Shown here one piece after another: positions 20,979-27,505 of a stretch of 40,557 nucleotides of DNA (the first letter of the stretch is position 1; each line of letters starts with the position of its first letter). A model generated the notes under the pieces. The model was given only the letters and a program-made list of their open reading frames with translations. It searched no databases and was not told the DNA's origin. The translations under genes and the position numbers were made by a program. The DNA comes from Magnetococcales bacterium. GTDB lineage: Bacteria > Pseudomonadota > Magnetococcia > Magnetococcales > UBA8363. The DNA lies in the NCBI GenBank assembly GCA_002753515.1, contig PEAK01000040.1, positions 1 to 40,557 on the forward strand. Direction: 5' to 3'.

Positions 20979-23666
20979 TCATTCAATCTCTTTGCGCGCA
21001 ATAATCAGATCATTGTCGGGGAAATGCCGAACCGAAAAGCCAAAACCTTTGACAAACTCAATCATCCGATGATTGGAAGGATCAACGTGGCCCTCCATCA
21101 CCCGAACATTGCGGCTACGACAGTATTCAATGGTCTTTTCCATCAGTTTACGACCCAATCCCATCCCCTTGATGTCGGTACGCACCACGATGGCAAATTC
21201 ACAGGCATCTTTATCCAGGTCCAAGAAGATACGATTGACACCCAAGGTTTCCCGATTACCCGTCCGCGGATCCCTGACCGTGGCAATAAAAGCCATCTCC
21301 CGGTTGTAATCAATCTGAGTGAGGCGGGCCGCCTCGGCGTGCGGAATCACCCGGCGTACCGATAAGAAACGATAAAATAAATCTTCCGGAGAAAGTCGGG
21401 ATAAAAATTCCAGGTGTTGTGGTTCATCTTCCGGACGAATGGGTCGCAACAACACCGGTCGGTTATCCCCCAAAAACCAGGTCTCTTCCAACTCTTTCGG
21501 ATAAGGGCGAATGGCCAATCGATGTTTGCCACCGCTCGAACGCCAAGTCGTGGAAAGACGTATCCGGGCATCAACGGCAATGACCCCATGACTGTCAGCA
21601 AACAAAGGATTGATATCCAACTCAATAATTTCCGGGATATCAATGATCAGTTGCGACAATTTGATCAACACCGTACATAAGGCTTCCATATTAATCGGTT
21701 TGCGGTCGCGATATCCCTTGAGCAGCCGGTAAATCCGCGTACGCGAGATCAATTCCTGGGCCAGGTTCATGTTCAGCGGTGGCAAAGCAACGGCATTATC
21801 ATCGATCACCTCCACCCCCGTGCCCCCCTGACCAAACATGATGACCGGCCCAAAAATGGGATCCGTCGCCATGCCCACCAACAATTCATGTGCCCCGGGG
21901 CGAATGGCCATTTCCTGTACCGAAAATCCTTGAATCCGGGCATTGGGCATCTTTTCGTGGATGTTTTTCAACATGTGTTCGGCTGCCGACTTGACAATCT
22001 GCGGAGAATCCAAAAACAAATCCACCCCGCCCATATCGCTCTTATGAGTGATATCCTCCGATAAAATTTTCAATGCGACGGGAAATTTCATCTCCTTGGA
22101 AATAGCCGAAGCATCTTCCGGAGTTTTGGCGATATGGGTCGTTACCGTTGGAATACCATAGGCTGAAAGAACCGCCTTGGATTCCGCCTCACTCATGACA
22201 TCCCGGTCAATCGCCAGGTTGTTTTCAATCACCAGGCGAGCGGTAGCGGTGGCAGGAAAAAAATCCTCCAATACCGAGGGAGGTGTTTCCATTAGCATTT
22301 GCTGATTGCGCGCATAGCGCACCATATGCATGAATGCAGAAACGGCTCGTTCCGGTGATTCATGGGTTGGTATGTTGGCCTGATGGAAAGCCCGACGGGC
22401 AGCCGCCACCCCATCACCCCCGATCCAACACGTGAGAATATTGGACTTGCACTTCTTGGCCGCCTCGATGGTCGCCAAAGCCGCCTCGGTACTATCGGCA
22501 GTGGCCAGTGGCGAATGCATGACCAACAGGGCATCCACATCGGCACTGGCCGCCATGATGGAAACGGCATTGCGGTATCGCTCGCCCGAGGCATCCCCAA
22601 TGATGTCCACCGGATTGGAATGCGACCAGGTAGGTGGTAATACCGCATCCAAAGCCTGAATGGTCTCCGGTTGCAAATGCGCCAACCTTCCCCCTTTTTC
22701 CATCAGGCTGTCCACTGCAATCACACCAAAACCGCCTCCATTGGTAATGATTCCCAAACGTTCGCCATTCAAAGGTTGCGCCCGGGCCAAAGTTTCCACA
22801 GCCGCGAACAATTCATCCAGTTCATAAACTCTGAGCATGCCCGCCCGGCGAATAGCGGTATCAAAAACCTTGTCGGAACCGGCCAATGCCCCGGTGTGCG
22901 AAGCCGCCGCCTGTAATCCCTCCGGGACGCGACCCGATTTAATGACCAAAATGGGCTTGTTGCGAGCCGCCGCCCGGGCCGCCGACATGAAATCCCGACG
23001 CTCATGGATCGACTCAATATAAAGAAGGATTGCCCGGGTTTTCGGATCCGCCCCCAGGTAGTCGATGACATCACCAAAATCAAGATCCAAGGCATCTCCC
23101 AGGGAAACAAAGTGGGAAAAACCAATCTTCTGACTGTTGGCCCAATCCAGTACCGAGGTACACATGGCCCCCGATTGCGAAACAAAGGCAATATGGCCGG
23201 GATACGCCTGGACATGGGAAAAACTGGCGTTCAAACCAATATTGGGAACCAATAATCCCAAACAGTTGGGTCCCAAGAGTCGCATTCCCGAATTACGTGC
23301 CAAACGTAACACAACCTCATGCAATGTCTGTCCGTTCTCATCCCGATGCAACTGCAACCCGGCCGTTATGATAATCGCGGCCCGAGTACCGCGACGAATA
23401 AGACTTTCCAACAACTTGGGCACAACAGTTGGCGGAGTGCAGATGAGCGCCAGATCAGGTACTTTGGGGAGAAGTTCCACCGATGGATAGGCCAAAACAC
23501 CCGCAATCGATTCATATTTGGGATTCACCGGCATGATGGGGCCGGAAAATCCACCCTGAAGCAGGTTACGACATATGAGAAAACCCAATGAATTGGGACG
23601 GGGTGAAGCCCCCAATACGGCGACTGATGAAGGATTAAATAAATTTTTCAAGTTTCTTGTGGTCAT
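20979..23666 (-). CDS. Pat-type protein: NDP-forming acyl-CoA-synthetase domains fused to GNAT acetyltransferase
   Basis: The 895-residue protein has three parts. First is a CoA-binding domain (NPSSVAVLGASPRPNSLG, LGPNCLGL) with a succinyl-CoA-ligase-like region. An ATP-grasp domain follows (about 470-690; PVALKILSEDITHKSDMGG, VGMATDPIFGPVIMFGQGG). A C-terminal GNAT domain has VLLRPIRPEDE and the acetyl-CoA loop VRTDIKGMGLGRKLM. This is the layout of bacterial Pat/PatZ enzymes, which acetylate lysines of targets such as acetyl-CoA synthetase. H257 in the SHTGALAG motif is the phosphohistidine position of ADP-forming acyl-CoA synthetases, so ligase activity is not excluded. The ATG at 23666 has AGAGGGG just before it; a TTG at 23699 is the alternative. 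It is a monocistronic cytoplasmic enzyme as far as the sequence shows. Confidence 0.88.
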   Translation of the reverse strand: MTTRNLKNLFNPSSVAVLGASPRPNSLGFLICRNLLQGGFSGPIMPVNPKYESIAGVLAYPSVELLPKVPDLALICTPPTVVPKLLESLIRRGTRAAIIITAGLQLHRDENGQTLHEVVLRLARNSGMRLLGPNCLGLLVPNIGLNASFSHVQAYPGHIAFVSQSGAMCTSVLDWANSQKIGFSHFVSLGDALDLDFGDVIDYLGADPKTRAILLYIESIHERRDFMSAARAAARNKPILVIKSGRVPEGLQAAASHTGALAGSDKVFDTAIRRAGMLRVYELDELFAAVETLARAQPLNGERLGIITNGGGFGVIAVDSLMEKGGRLAHLQPETIQALDAVLPPTWSHSNPVDIIGDASGERYRNAVSIMAASADVDALLVMHSPLATADSTEAALATIEAAKKCKSNILTCWIGGDGVAAARRAFHQANIPTHESPERAVSAFMHMVRYARNQQMLMETPPSVLEDFFPATATARLVIENNLAIDRDVMSEAESKAVLSAYGIPTVTTHIAKTPEDASAISKEMKFPVALKILSEDITHKSDMGGVDLFLDSPQIVKSAAEHMLKNIHEKMPNARIQGFSVQEMAIRPGAHELLVGMATDPIFGPVIMFGQGGTGVEVIDDNAVALPPLNMNLAQELISRTRIYRLLKGYRDRKPINMEALCTVLIKLSQLIIDIPEIIELDINPLFADSHGVIAVDARIRLSTTWRSSGGKHRLAIRPYPKELEETWFLGDNRPVLLRPIRPEDEPQHLEFLSRLSPEDLFYRFLSVRRVIPHAEAARLTQIDYNREMAFIATVRDPRTGNRETLGVNRIFLDLDKDACEFAIVVRTDIKGMGLGRKLMEKTIEYCRSRNVRVMEGHVDPSNHRMIEFVKGFGFSVRHFPDNDLIIARKEIE

Positions 23667-24047
23667 GGCCCCTCTTACGGTTGCAGGTGATCCTGACAAA
23701 CAAAAATTCTTTGTGATCCCAGTGTAGCGCCGTTTTCAATGTCAATAAATGGGGTAGCGAAATAAGACCCCATCGTCACGGATGGATCGGCTCCTTTGTA
23801 GACATGATTATGTGTTTGTAGAGGGTAAAATCACGATTTATCCATACGACAGGTTACAAATGAACCAGCGAGCAGGGAGAAAATCGGTTGTTTATGATTG
23901 GTTGACTCCTTCCCCTGGGAACCTTATACGAAGACTACCAGCAACGTCCAACAAAATCGTACAACGTCAGATCAATCGCACTTGAAAGTCACCTGCTGGG
24001 GCAATGGCGAACTGACGGAAGTTTTGCTAAGTTGTTGCTCATGAATA
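23667..24047. other. Intergenic stretch with one short hairpin
   Basis: ATGGGGT at 23749-23755 pairs with ACCCCAT at 23767-23773 across an 11-base loop. A 67-codon plus-strand frame (23782-23985) has no ribosome-binding site or recognisable motif, and I do not support it as a gene. The rest is featureless to me. Confidence 0.35.
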
Positions 24048-24503
24048 TCATGCCTGTACAGGTGATGCGCGAAGCCGACCGGCCATGCGCAAACCATCTC
24101 GTACATTCCGTGCCAGCAAAATCAGGTTGATCGGTCCTGCGATCAACTCGATTGCCTGCACCACATAGAAGGTGGTGTCGAAGCTGCCAACGGCTGCCCA
24201 GCGATTGAGTAAAATGGCACAGGGCAACAGGACGAGCAGTCCATTGGCAGCGATGAACGGCATGCGCTTTTTCTTGGTGTCAACCAGCCGTCCACGCCGC
24301 GACTTGCCCATAAACATGCCACTACCTCCAGCCATCGCGATGGCCGGAATCAAAATCCATAGACCCGGCGTGACGATAAGTGATTTCAATTGCGCTACCG
24401 CAGGGTGCGAGCCAAACAATTCGACGAACACGGTGGATGTCCAGAAAAGTGCGATGCAGAGCGGAGCAGCAAAGCCTCCAATGCGATGAATGATCTTGGG
24501 CAT
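24048..24503 (-). CDS. Small integral membrane protein, divergent from a MarR regulator
   Basis: I do not recognise a named family. The 151-residue protein has about four hydrophobic segments: near 8-26 (GFAAPLCIALFWTSTVFVE), 40-60, 80-98 and 112-130. A basic loop lies between the second and third (GKSRRGRLVDTKKKR). AAAGGA nine bases before the ATG at 24503 decides this start over an upstream in-frame ATG at 24542. It is transcribed away from the MarR gene, and an inverted repeat stands between them. It is therefore probably the regulator's target and may handle a small toxic or lipophilic compound; that is inference from context. Confidence 0.6.
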   Translation of the reverse strand: MPKIIHRIGGFAAPLCIALFWTSTVFVELFGSHPAVAQLKSLIVTPGLWILIPAIAMAGGSGMFMGKSRRGRLVDTKKKRMPFIAANGLLVLLPCAILLNRWAAVGSFDTTFYVVQAIELIAGPINLILLARNVRDGLRMAGRLRASPVQA

Positions 24504-24574
24504 AGGAAAAGGTCCTTTCAGGTGTCGAATCAGGCCGGGCATCAGAGTTGTAGCCGCATCGAATTGGATGTATT

Positions 24575-24630
24575 ATGTCAATATGGTACCACAAAGCCTT
24601 ATTGTGTACAATTGACATCGTGATGTCAAC
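24575..24630. promoter_or_regulatory. Probable MarR operator and divergent promoter region
   Basis: TTGACATC at 24612-24619 and GATGTCAA at 24622-24629 form a perfect 8-base inverted repeat with a 2-base spacer, the size of MarR-family operators. A third half-site, ATGTCAAT, is at 24575-24582. On the minus strand TTGACA followed 17 bases later by CACAAT could be the promoter of the membrane-protein gene, with the operator over its -35 box. Confidence 0.5.
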
Positions 24631-24648
24631 GTGGCAATGTTCACCAGT

Positions 24649-25116
24649 ATGAACAAAGACAAACGCACCCCGTCCGGCAAAGCCTTGACTGATCTCGTCC
24701 TCGAACTATTTCGTTTGAATAATCGACTGCTGGTCGCAGGAGACCGTCTGGTCGCCAACATTGGCCTTACGAGTGCCCGTTGGAAAGTACTCGGCACGAT
24801 CACTGCGAGTGAGCGCCCTCAACCTGTTGCCTGGCTTGCGCGCGACATGGGAGCAAACCGACAGAATATCCAGCGGATCGTCAATGACCTTACGAATGAG
24901 GGTTTGGTGGTGCTACGGTCAAATCCCCATCACCGGAGAGCTCCATTGGTGGTACTCACCGACGCAGGGACTCGTGCTTTTGAACAAGCGATGCGCCTTC
25001 AGGCACCTTGGATCAACGAACTTTCGGATGGCCTGCCGGTCATCGACATTGAAACGACCCTCCGAGTGATTACTGCCGTTTCCAGGAAACTGGAGGGTGA
25101 TGGGAAGTCGGAGTAG
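24649..25116 (+). CDS. MarR-family transcriptional regulator
   Basis: The protein (155 residues from the ATG at 24649) has the winged-helix layout of MarR regulators. It has an N-terminal dimerisation helix (LVLELFRLNNRLLVAGDRL), LTSARWKVLGTI, and a recognition helix in PVAWLARDMGANRQNIQRIVNDL. The wing reads LRSNPHHRRAPLVVLT, and dimerisation helices follow at the C-terminus. These cytoplasmic dimers bind palindromic operators and release DNA on binding small phenolic or drug-like ligands. The frame is also open from a GTG at 24631 and an ATG at 24637. I chose 24649 because the likely operator ends at 24629, against the upstream starts. It probably represses itself and the divergent membrane-protein gene. 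Confidence 0.82.
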   Translation: MNKDKRTPSGKALTDLVLELFRLNNRLLVAGDRLVANIGLTSARWKVLGTITASERPQPVAWLARDMGANRQNIQRIVNDLTNEGLVVLRSNPHHRRAPLVVLTDAGTRAFEQAMRLQAPWINELSDGLPVIDIETTLRVITAVSRKLEGDGKSE

Positions 25117-25236
25117 TTGCAAAAAGCCATATAATCTGATAGACTCTCGGTATTTCTAAGTGCTATCTAGTTTATAGGATTATTATAAATTTAACGCATA
25201 ACTAGAAAATTGAAAGAAAAATAATCGAAAGATAAT

Positions 25237-26058
25237 ATGGAAAAAACTTGGATTAAAGCGATAAAGAAGGTGCTGGCCGATCCGGAGTATGCATCTGGAC
25301 TGCACTATACCGAAATCACCGAGCAGATTTTTTTTCGTGGCCTCTACGAAACGGATGGGGCGACTCCTGCTGCAACGGTCAGAGCACAAATTAACTCCTC
25401 CATTAAGCACAAAGGCAGTGCTTCTCCGTTTATTAAGATTGGCCCAGGAGTGTTTGCCCTTAGAACAACTCAATCAAATCAAATTGAGAATCTGGACGAT
25501 ACCGAGTTGGAAGAAAGAAACAGCGCTCATGAGGTTCCAGAGCTGGAATCAAATTCAATGTCGATTATCCGCTCATTCGGCATGTACTGGCATAGAGAAC
25601 TTATCGTATGGAGGGCCGATCCTAAATTGCTTGGAAAGCAGTCGACGGGATCAAAACAAGTCGATTTTTGCAAACAAAAAGGAATTTATATCCTTTACGA
25701 TCACCATTCTGTTATTTACGTTGGACGATCCATCGACAGACCGTTAGGCAAACGTTTGTTTGAGCATACCGTTGACAGACTGGGTAGCCGTTGGAACCGA
25801 TTTTCTTGGTTTGGTCTCCTCAACGTTGCAAAAGACGGTAATTTGCGCGAGGTTCAATTTAATTCGTCTGCTTCATCCCTCATCACATCCCTGGAAAGTC
25901 TTCTCATCGAAGCTTTGGAACCACCATTGAATCGAAAACGTGGAGAGAATTTTTCTGAGTATGAGTATATCCAGGATATTGATCAAGAATTACGAGAACG
26001 TGACCTGCAACATACCCTTCGATTGATCGAGACTAAATTGAGAGGACAGAGCGAATAA
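25237..26058 (+). CDS. HARE-HTH domain fused to GIY-YIG nuclease (candidate restriction or defence enzyme)
   Basis: The 273-residue protein has two recognisable parts. Residues 3-77 (TWIKAIKKVLA, LHYTEITEQIFFRGLY, TVRAQINSSIK, FIKIGPGVFAL) fit the HARE-HTH winged helix, a DNA-reading domain of restriction enzymes and chromatin proteins. Residues 148-235 form a GIY-YIG nuclease: GIYILYD (149-155), VIYVGRS (159-165), the arginine in KRLFEH (R173), and the metal-binding glutamate in LESLLIEALEPPLN (E220). All catalytic positions are therefore intact. A linker of about 70 residues joins them. No methyltransferase or helicase gene is adjacent, so it would act alone or with distant partners. It lies next to a HicAB pair in a small accessory patch. 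The Shine-Dalgarno is weak (AAAGAT). Confidence 0.78.
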   Translation: MEKTWIKAIKKVLADPEYASGLHYTEITEQIFFRGLYETDGATPAATVRAQINSSIKHKGSASPFIKIGPGVFALRTTQSNQIENLDDTELEERNSAHEVPELESNSMSIIRSFGMYWHRELIVWRADPKLLGKQSTGSKQVDFCKQKGIYILYDHHSVIYVGRSIDRPLGKRLFEHTVDRLGSRWNRFSWFGLLNVAKDGNLREVQFNSSASSLITSLESLLIEALEPPLNRKRGENFSEYEYIQDIDQELRERDLQHTLRLIETKLRGQSE

Positions 26059-26288: not shown

Positions 26289-26705
26289 CTACTCAAACGA
26301 AATGATTAACCGGTGCCCAAGGACTGCTGCAGTCTTTTCAAGTTGTTTTAACGATGGCCAGTGACGTACGTTTTCCATCCGATTGGCGGCTGGCCATGAT
26401 GTCCCCATGGCTCTGGCGATTTCTGACATGGGTCGGTCACCCCTGGAGCGACGAACGAGAAGTGCAGCCTGTGTTTTGGCATCAGGGGCCACATAACGTG
26501 CCCCAACCACTCCGATGGAAGGTTCTGGAATGGTCTGGTTATTGTCCATTCGCCACTCCAGCATAGCGGTCAACACTTCGGCGGCATTGAAGAGCGCCTC
26601 CTCTTCCGTTTCTCCCTCGGTAAAGGTGTCGTCCAAATCCTGAAACCTGACAAAAAATCCCTTCGGTTTCTGGGGTTCCAAAATGGCTGGATAGCGAATG
26701 TCCAT
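26289..26705 (-). CDS. hicB: HicB-family antitoxin
   Basis: The 138-residue protein starts with the HicB partial RNase-H fold (RYPAILEPQKPKGFFVRFQDLDDTFTEGETEEEALFNAAEVL). A C-terminal helix-turn-helix follows at about 90-125 (MSEIARAMGTSWPAANRMEN). HicB binds and neutralises the mRNA-cleaving HicA toxin, and its HTH represses the operon. It follows hicA by 15 bases on the same strand, the usual toxin-first order. The promoter upstream of hicA carries a palindrome that is the likely HicB target. Confidence 0.88.
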   Translation of the reverse strand: MDIRYPAILEPQKPKGFFVRFQDLDDTFTEGETEEEALFNAAEVLTAMLEWRMDNNQTIPEPSIGVVGARYVAPDAKTQAALLVRRSRGDRPMSEIARAMGTSWPAANRMENVRHWPSLKQLEKTAAVLGHRLIISFE

Positions 26706-26720: not shown

Positions 26721-26906
26721 TTACTTCATTCGAATGCCGGTTTGTCGATGAATCGCAGCTAACAGACCATTGCCCAGGTCATGTTTACCATGCACGGGGA
26801 CCGGGACTGCTTTTCCATCCTTTGCCATGATGTGGTGACTTCCGGATATGCGGTCCAGTTTCCACCCTGCAGATTTCAGCTTGGCAATGACATCTTGTCC
26901 GGTCAT
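26721..26906 (-). CDS. hicA: HicA-family mRNA interferase toxin
   Basis: At 61 residues this has the normal HicA size. It shows the double-stranded-RNA-binding-like fold pattern: an N-terminal helix with VIAKLKSAGWKLDRI, the catalytic histidine in GSHHIM (H24 or H25), a strand with VPVPVHG, and the ending LAAIHRQTGI. HicA cleaves mRNA and arrests growth when hicB product is lost. It is co-transcribed with hicB. A clear -35/-10 pair lies just upstream. Confidence 0.88.
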   Translation of the reverse strand: MTGQDVIAKLKSAGWKLDRISGSHHIMAKDGKAVPVPVHGKHDLGNGLLAAIHRQTGIRMK

Positions 26907-27001: not shown

Positions 27002-27505
27002 TTATGGACTTGTTTCTTCATTGGTTTTGGGGTGACGAGATTGGAGCGTCCAACCTGTTTCGGGGGAATGGATCCAATACTCCATCCGACACCCCGAATC
27101 ACGATAGCGCCGGTATCGTTCACGACTGGCTTGCACCCCCTCGGCAATGTGACCGGGGACAAAATCCAGGACCATGTCAAAGTCACCAAATCTTTCCTCA
27201 AACCGCCCATGGGCCAGGAGCAAAACAGTCGCACCATTGATATCCTGCGGTTCCGTACACAAAAGGATGGGATGCCAGACGCTGTCGGCCCCGCCACAGA
27301 TGCCGTGGGGCAAAAAGGAATCGTTGCCCTGTGTCCACAAGGCCTCATCCAGCCTAGCCGCATGGTTCTGATCGGCCACCACAACGCACGCCTTGATGTT
27401 TTTGGCGACAATCCGACTCAAGAGTCCGAACAACAGGCGCTCCATGGGTCCCTGGGCCCATTGATAAAACCTGACTAATGTGACCCCGGGTTCCACCCGC
27501 GCCAC
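27002..27505 (-). CDS. holC: DNA polymerase III chi subunit
   Basis: The 167-residue protein matches HolC. It has an N-terminal strand and helix (TLVRFYQWAQGPMERLLFGLLSRI), CVVVADQNHAARLDEALWT, and the family hallmark FLPHG (NDSFLPHG). The C-terminus has the R-rich helix ASRERYRRYRDSGCR. Chi binds psi and single-strand-binding protein within the clamp loader of the replisome. The start is a GTG directly after the pepA stop (TAGGTG), with AAGGAG nine bases upstream inside pepA. The pair is therefore translationally coupled, the classic pepA-holC order. Confidence 0.88.
   Translation of the reverse strand: MARVEPGVTLVRFYQWAQGPMERLLFGLLSRIVAKNIKACVVVADQNHAARLDEALWTQGNDSFLPHGICGGADSVWHPILLCTEPQDINGATVLLLAHGRFEERFGDFDMVLDFVPGHIAEGVQASRERYRRYRDSGCRMEYWIHSPETGWTLQSRHPKTNEETSP

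Follow-up and report, generated by a model that had tools for sequence, protein, structure and literature searches.

A HARE-HTH/GIY-YIG fusion gene in Magnetococcales, a predicted one-gene restriction nuclease with relatives carried as integron cassettes

The GIY-YIG restriction enzymes R.Eco29kI and Hpy188I belong to type II systems; to our knowledge, they come with cognate methyltransferases and neither carries a HARE-HTH domain. In humans, HARE-HTH is the N-terminal domain of the ASXL proteins. Darracq et al. 2025 and Kieffer et al. 2025 are said to have described defence genes as integron cassettes. Closest in architecture are the fusions Ahi29725I and Apa233I, in which a winged-helix (wH) reader lies N-terminal to a GIY-YIG nuclease in a single chain; both cut Dam-modified DNA preferentially, outside the site, and linked methylases are rare among such fusions (PMC11037411). 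HARE-HTH has been proposed as a sensor of cytosine modification (work cited in PMC11037411) and of modified bases (PMC10853773), and in fusions to a REase of the PD-(D/E)XK fold, found in Dnd and BREX neighbourhoods, it is the proposed modified-DNA discriminator on the nuclease (PMC10853773, PMC12839542). In the literature found, this reader function is a prediction and not a demonstration. A literature search returned no paper on a HARE/GIY-YIG fusion or on cassettes of it; the 2012 HARE-HTH paper (Aravind and Iyer), which the search did not cover, may list such a fusion, and one report, in which HARE is unmentioned, concerns an Aeromonas integron cassette with a GIY-YIG domain.

The window analysed here is a stretch of 40,557 nucleotides from a Magnetococcales genome (contig PEAK01000040.1), for which an earlier sequence-only reading had proposed a compact HARE-HTH/GIY-YIG fusion acting as a solo defence nuclease. 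The open reading frame was recovered at the coordinates, on the strand and with the length that had been claimed, and its parts are as follows.

25237..26058, plus strand: whole gene of the predicted HARE-HTH/GIY-YIG nuclease, 273 aa (open reading frame; relatives, best 80 of 104)
25246..25467, plus strand: HARE-HTH, putative winged-helix-like DNA reader, residues 4-77 (PF05066, E=1.7e-12; confident model, winged-helix matches in the PDB)
25474..25548, plus strand: flexible linker, residues 80-104 (sole region with pLDDT <50)
25564..26055, plus strand: GIY-YIG nuclease half, residues 110-273, with a C-terminal helix at 250-271 (PF20815, E=3e-4, under cut-off)
25687..25719, plus strand: GIY...YVG core, Y151 (25687-25689) and Y161 (25717-25719), each kept in 76/77 relatives
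25753..25767, plus strand: R173 (25753-25755) and H177 (25765-25767), kept in 76/77 and 77/77
25789..25815, plus strand: subfamily signature RWNRFSWFG, residues 185-193, near-invariant across 77 relatives
25894..25932, plus strand: E220 (metal-binding position) and N232, kept in 75/77 and 76/77

The identity of the N-terminus had been left to a profile search, which placed it in HARE-HTH: PF05066 scored 48 bits (cut-off 25.9), covered model positions 2-70 of 71 and was matched by all 55 aligned relatives. The same approach did not secure the nuclease half. GIY_YIG_2 (PF20815) aligned with residues 151-181 at 21.2 bits against a cut-off of 22.4, the general GIY-YIG model PF01541 did not reach the window protein in a whole-genome profile search of its own genome, and at E<=0.01 the two models matched 7 and 4 of 55 relatives, respectively. 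As the Pfam models stayed under their cut-offs, the GIY-YIG assignment stands on the active-site residues, and here the claim that the catalytic positions Y151, Y161, R173 and E220 are intact was borne out by their conservation in at least 75 of 77 distinct relatives. The sole exceptions at Y151 and Y161 both come from locus L074, where the gene is apparently frame-shifted. By this motif, the half is, as far as sequence goes, a divergent member of the superfamily. Every position of the RWNRFSWFG stretch is invariant in the 77 relatives except N187 (76/77), and on such sequence grounds it is a marker of the subfamily. No match to the window protein was returned by PADLOC, PHROGs or NCBIfam, and a PDB sequence search was set aside as uninformative, its matches (ribosomal L12, C-type lectins) being due to chance.

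The arrangement of these residues bears on one alternative, an orphan sequence-specific restriction nuclease in which HARE-HTH would read unmodified sequence and the host would be guarded by a distant methyltransferase or by rarity of the site. The active-site set is that of the type II enzyme R.Eco29kI, with an equal spacing of 4 between R173 and H177 and of 12 between E220 and N232; the R.Eco29kI counterparts (R104, H108, E142 and N154) are required for cleavage according to mutagenesis (PMC1952068). Structure modelling of the whole protein (pLDDT 85.5, pTM 0.60) gave a head resembling a winged helix, joined through a disordered linker (residues 80-104) to a compact nuclease half, which on its own was modelled at pLDDT 86.8 and pTM 0.80. 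When this half was searched against PDB folds, type II Hpy188I ranked first, followed by the UvrC GIY-YIG domain, with all E >=0.46, so that at this weakness both count by rank only; matches of the whole model were likewise weak (E >=0.15), with UvrC GIY-YIG among the top. The first rank of Hpy188I is a further point for the orphan type II-like enzyme. The UvrC matches favour a second alternative, a nuclease of DNA repair or recombination that would be structure-selective like UvrC, with HARE-HTH as its reader of damaged bases.

The surroundings of the gene in the window include the following features.

20979..23699, minus strand: patZ-like acetyltransferase/CoA ligase, bounding the variable site on the left (adjoins holC in genomes G003-G006)
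23775..25959, no strand assigned: stretch missing from the nearest relative, G001, comprising the open reading frame at 24048, the MarR gene and the greater part of the nuclease gene (blastn and tblastn of locus L107, junction read)
24048..24542, minus strand: uncharacterised open reading frame in the insertion patch (no family above cut-off; absent from G001 and G003-G006)
24631..25116, plus strand: MarR-family regulator, upstream neighbour (PF12802, E=1.5e-10; absent from G001)
26289..26705, minus strand: HicB antitoxin in the patch (PF15919 over cut-off; 100% identical in G001)
26721..26906, minus strand: HicA toxin in the patch (PF07927, E=1.6e-17; 90% identical in G001)
27002..27505, minus strand: holC (DNA polymerase III chi), bounding the variable site on the right (PF04364, E=4e-28)

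The gene is thus flanked by MarR and HicAB, with the patZ-like gene and holC-pepA outside, as had been described, and the view that this patch interrupts housekeeping genes was upheld by the same-genus genomes G003, G004, G005 and G006, in which the order is pepA-holC-patZ and the holC-patZ gap measures about 24-96 bp. The same interval in the window spans 3.3 kb and holds the uncharacterised open reading frame, MarR, the nuclease gene and HicAB. In G001, whose PepA is 97% identical to that of the window, HicAB is kept and the nuclease gene survives as a 3' stub with a broken frame (residues ~242-271; locus L107). The simplest reading of these sequences is that the nuclease gene would have been present at the holC-patZ site in the shared ancestor and then lost in the sister G001, a loss that would mark it as accessory and dispensable. 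Its G+C content is 43.8%, versus 51-56% in the neighbouring genes. The MarR gene was considered as a co-moving regulator of the nuclease family and rejected, as it is not recurrent and is absent from G001. With regard to the HicAB pair, it persists in G001 where most of the nuclease gene is gone, with HicB 100%, HicA 90% and the flanking proteins 93-98% identical between window:26289-26906 and L107:3211-3825. Another genome of the same genus, G007, has a holC-patZ gap of ~760 bp (L110:6787-7552), possibly another insertion at this variable site. Its relatives place the host of the window among Magnetococcales; loci L056 and L064 have the same sequences as G002 and G010.

Scanning a single genome for each species turned up 104 relatives, and the best 80 of them were taken further. 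Among these best 80, most are from Pseudomonadota, and Bacteroidota, Planctomycetota, Cyanobacteriota, Verrucomicrobiota, Thermodesulfobacteriota and others are also represented; many relatives come from metagenome bins, so single phylum labels may be binning errors. Phyla are intermixed in the family tree, and the 8.9-kb Solidesulfovibrio magneticus plasmid pDMC2 carries a 38%-identical copy. The presence in many phyla, the mixed tree and the plasmid copy speak for horizontal spread of the family. Prevalence is low, at 7/397 genomes in a phylum sample that includes close relatives and 15/251 in the order of genome G417. Adjacent genes differ at nearly every locus and are often single housekeeping genes (the neighbour names mutM, metG and uvrA were read by eye); apart from a generic response-regulator group in seven loci there were no recurrent neighbour clusters, and no conserved partner gene was found across the loci. 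No methyltransferase was found adjacent to the gene in the window, in agreement with the sequence-only reading, and a methyltransferase-like open reading frame within five genes was seen at four loci, none of them recurrent. The nuclease gene is therefore solo, its neighbours being non-recurrent and any methylase unlinked. This is what is expected of type IV restriction, which has no cognate methyltransferase, and not of type II restriction-modification, where one is linked.

The repair alternative can point, besides UvrC, to loci in which the gene follows mutM- or uvrA-like genes (L018, L060; read by eye), but a sporadic gene (7/397 in the phylum sample) in variable positions, decayed in the closest relative G001 and mobile as a cassette, makes a poor candidate for a repair function, which we regard as very unlikely. 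The expectation that homologues would not sit consistently in housekeeping repair operons was confirmed by neighbours that are different almost every time.

Cassette mobility was evident from the boundaries of the genes. The core site GTTRRRY was concentrated at offsets of -21 to -23 relative to the start codon in 19 of 79 loci, and RYYYAAC lay 1-4 bases past the stop codon in 14 loci, all other offsets having single counts. A covariance model trained on ten attC sites from the relatives' loci then revealed whole attC arrays in L019, L022, L036, L055 and L068, nearly all in the orientation of the gene, with many matches outside the training set and E down to 8e-10; an initial pattern scan with loose helix rules gave few sites and was superseded by the positional counts and this model. 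An attC site was found downstream of the gene in L015, L019, L022, L024, L026, L036, L047, L048, L055, L065, L068 and L077. At least 12 of the 80 loci hence hold the relative as an integron gene cassette, and in L047 and L077 it has the look of a lone cassette inserted outside an array. For the window copy itself, cassette status was rejected: neither the pattern scan nor the covariance model found an attC site in the window, a second covariance search found none in the Magnetococcales synteny loci, and no IntI above cut-off was present in the window genome. An integron integrase exceeded its cut-off in 20 of 49 carrier genomes, but within one order the frequency among carriers (8/15) did not differ from the base rate (131/251), and co-occurrence with the integrase is therefore not claimed.

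The same boundaries weigh on the possibility of a mobility or homing-type selfish endonuclease that promotes its own spread. GIY-YIG domains are common among homing endonucleases, and the nuclease half has stand-alone relatives in phage and virus-like contigs. The cassette copies, however, are mobilised via attC sites, the insertion sites are mutually unrelated, and we know of no HARE-HTH domain in homing enzymes, all of which makes this explanation highly improbable.

Some loci place the gene in defence-related company. In Acidithiobacillus sulfuriphilus (L019:4852-9318), consecutive attC-bounded cassettes hold, in this order, the genes for a TIR protein (PF13676, also ThsB_TIR), for an AIPR protein and for HARE/GIY-YIG. 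Directly after the nuclease gene lies a XamI restriction gene in L026, and a HindVP endonuclease and a C5 methylase follow it in L029. HicAB are the sole defence-linked genes in the window; at other loci, BrnT or ParE toxins are among the neighbours. Most neighbours across the loci are nevertheless housekeeping genes, and a survey for defence islands, as proposed earlier, gave a divided answer, with most homologues outside classical islands. In a PADLOC tally of the loci, the hits were scattered and came mainly from methyltransferase models matching two proteins, and the tally was dropped as a basis for a defence-island claim. The notion of a solo defence nuclease is supported in part: by the HARE-HTH domain with an intact GIY-YIG active site, the missing linked methylase, the variable site, the presence or absence of the gene among close relatives, and the finding of family members as integron cassettes, on a small plasmid and next to restriction or immune genes. 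Defence, DNA cleavage and the reading of modified DNA are predicted functions. As a separate observation, the L019 array resembles a small store of candidate immune genes.

These toxin and immune neighbours (TIR and AIPR cassettes in L019, HicAB in the window, BrnT or ParE elsewhere) could also be taken to favour a DNase of abortive-infection style, silent until an infection cue, with HARE-HTH as DNA anchor or regulator and not as reader of modification. Toxin-antitoxin genes are, however, common integron cargo in any case, and neither a partner nor an antitoxin recurs beside the gene, so that such a DNase seems quite unlikely.

The methyltransferases of the carriers were considered with regard to both the orphan enzyme and the candidate target. 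C5 methyltransferases (PF00145) were above cut-off in 31 of 49 carrier genomes and D12-type methyltransferases in 24 of 49, both counts standing without a matched control set. The window genome has no PF00145 match and a weak D12 match only, inside a 990-aa frame, and the Pseudoalteromonas carrier G454 has a strong D12-type match. For the orphan sequence-specific enzyme, the several C5 methyltransferases elsewhere in many carriers and two loci directly beside type II restriction-modification genes are in its favour. Against it, the methylase is unlinked in the window and at nearly all loci, the gene's own genome lacks a C5 methyltransferase, and a lone cassette crossing phyla would be expected to harm hosts without the matching methylase. 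On balance, this explanation is unlikely.

Mutual exclusion between the nuclease and C5 or D12 methyltransferases was not seen in the 49 carriers, a comparison that is weak for want of a matched control. Because many carriers encode these enzymes, neither plain 5mC, whatever its context, nor G6mATC is likely to be a universal target, and the simplest form of the original proposal, a reader of plain 5mC or Dam-type 6mA, is disfavoured. The D12 matches, including the strong one in G454, likewise speak against a G6mATC dependence of the Ahi29725I type. Phage hypermodification (5hmC or a derivative) would fit all carriers, in an argument made without a matched control.

An inserted solo gene with cassette relatives, once located after two immune-type genes, is probably a one-gene restriction enzyme directed against modified foreign DNA. 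We lean towards a type IV-like restriction nuclease encoded by one gene and spreading as an accessory gene, with a predicted defence activity, and infer its role in defence from mobility, company and analogy. A more specific version, held tentatively, is that of a new family of HARE-HTH-guided GIY-YIG one-gene restriction enzymes, methylase-free readers of cytosine hypermodification that would travel across phyla as cassettes and settle beside housekeeping genes. In such an enzyme, HARE-HTH would dock on invading duplex DNA whose bases carry a modification that the host does not have. In keeping with the published HARE-HTH prediction, this would most likely be a hypermodified cytosine, for example 5hmC or a derivative of it. 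The tethered GIY-YIG domain would cut nearby with the help of a single metal ion. The host's own DNA, being without the mark, would escape cleavage; a protective methylase would then be unnecessary, and a single gene would be enough, which would suit an integron cassette.

By analogy, we infer that the HARE/GIY-YIG protein works like the wH-GIY-YIG enzymes, with which it shares an N-terminal winged-helix-type reader, a single chain and the rarity of linked methylases, and that the HARE reader and the cassette lifestyle are what is new. Modification dependence is experimental for Ahi29725I and Apa233I and predicted for the window protein. Those enzymes are of ~24 kDa and read G6mATC through a DpnI-like wH, whereas the 273-aa window protein has a HARE-HTH with an extra helix as a predicted reader of cytosine modification, the RWNRFSWFG signature and a C-terminal helix in its GIY half, and D12-type methyltransferases in about half of its family's carriers. 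R.Eco29kI and Hpy188I differ as members of type II systems, the window gene being without a linked methylase. The HARE-HTH-REase fusions have another nuclease fold and act in multi-gene systems, in contrast to the solo gene described here. The likeness to integron defence cassettes lies in compact attC-bounded genes, as in L019, directly after TIR and AIPR; the window copy differs in not being a cassette.

A compact bacterial nuclease with HARE-HTH in the same chain would make the reader prediction directly testable through DNA cleavage or phage restriction. Furthermore, integrons are coming to be viewed as stores of antiphage genes, and the packaging as cassettes puts forward one more candidate, a gene that in the public annotation of the pDMC2 copy appears as an HTH protein only.

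Several variants of the two halves were also noted. Small stand-alone proteins consisting of the nuclease half without HARE-HTH, with the signature RW[NS]RFSWFG, occur in virus-like contigs (L115-L122), and at L058:4250-4741 such a protein is encoded directly upstream of a HARE/GIY-YIG gene. Conversely, a protein of 360-384 aa in L010/L012 (G048:C10:9131-9619) matches the HARE-HTH half of the query twice, at separate places, and may be a tandem-HARE protein without a nuclease. A full-length relative with 43% identity (L114) was found on IMG/VR contig 3300027905_000728, which is classed as viral, and this locus starts with the apparent end of a tRNA gene.
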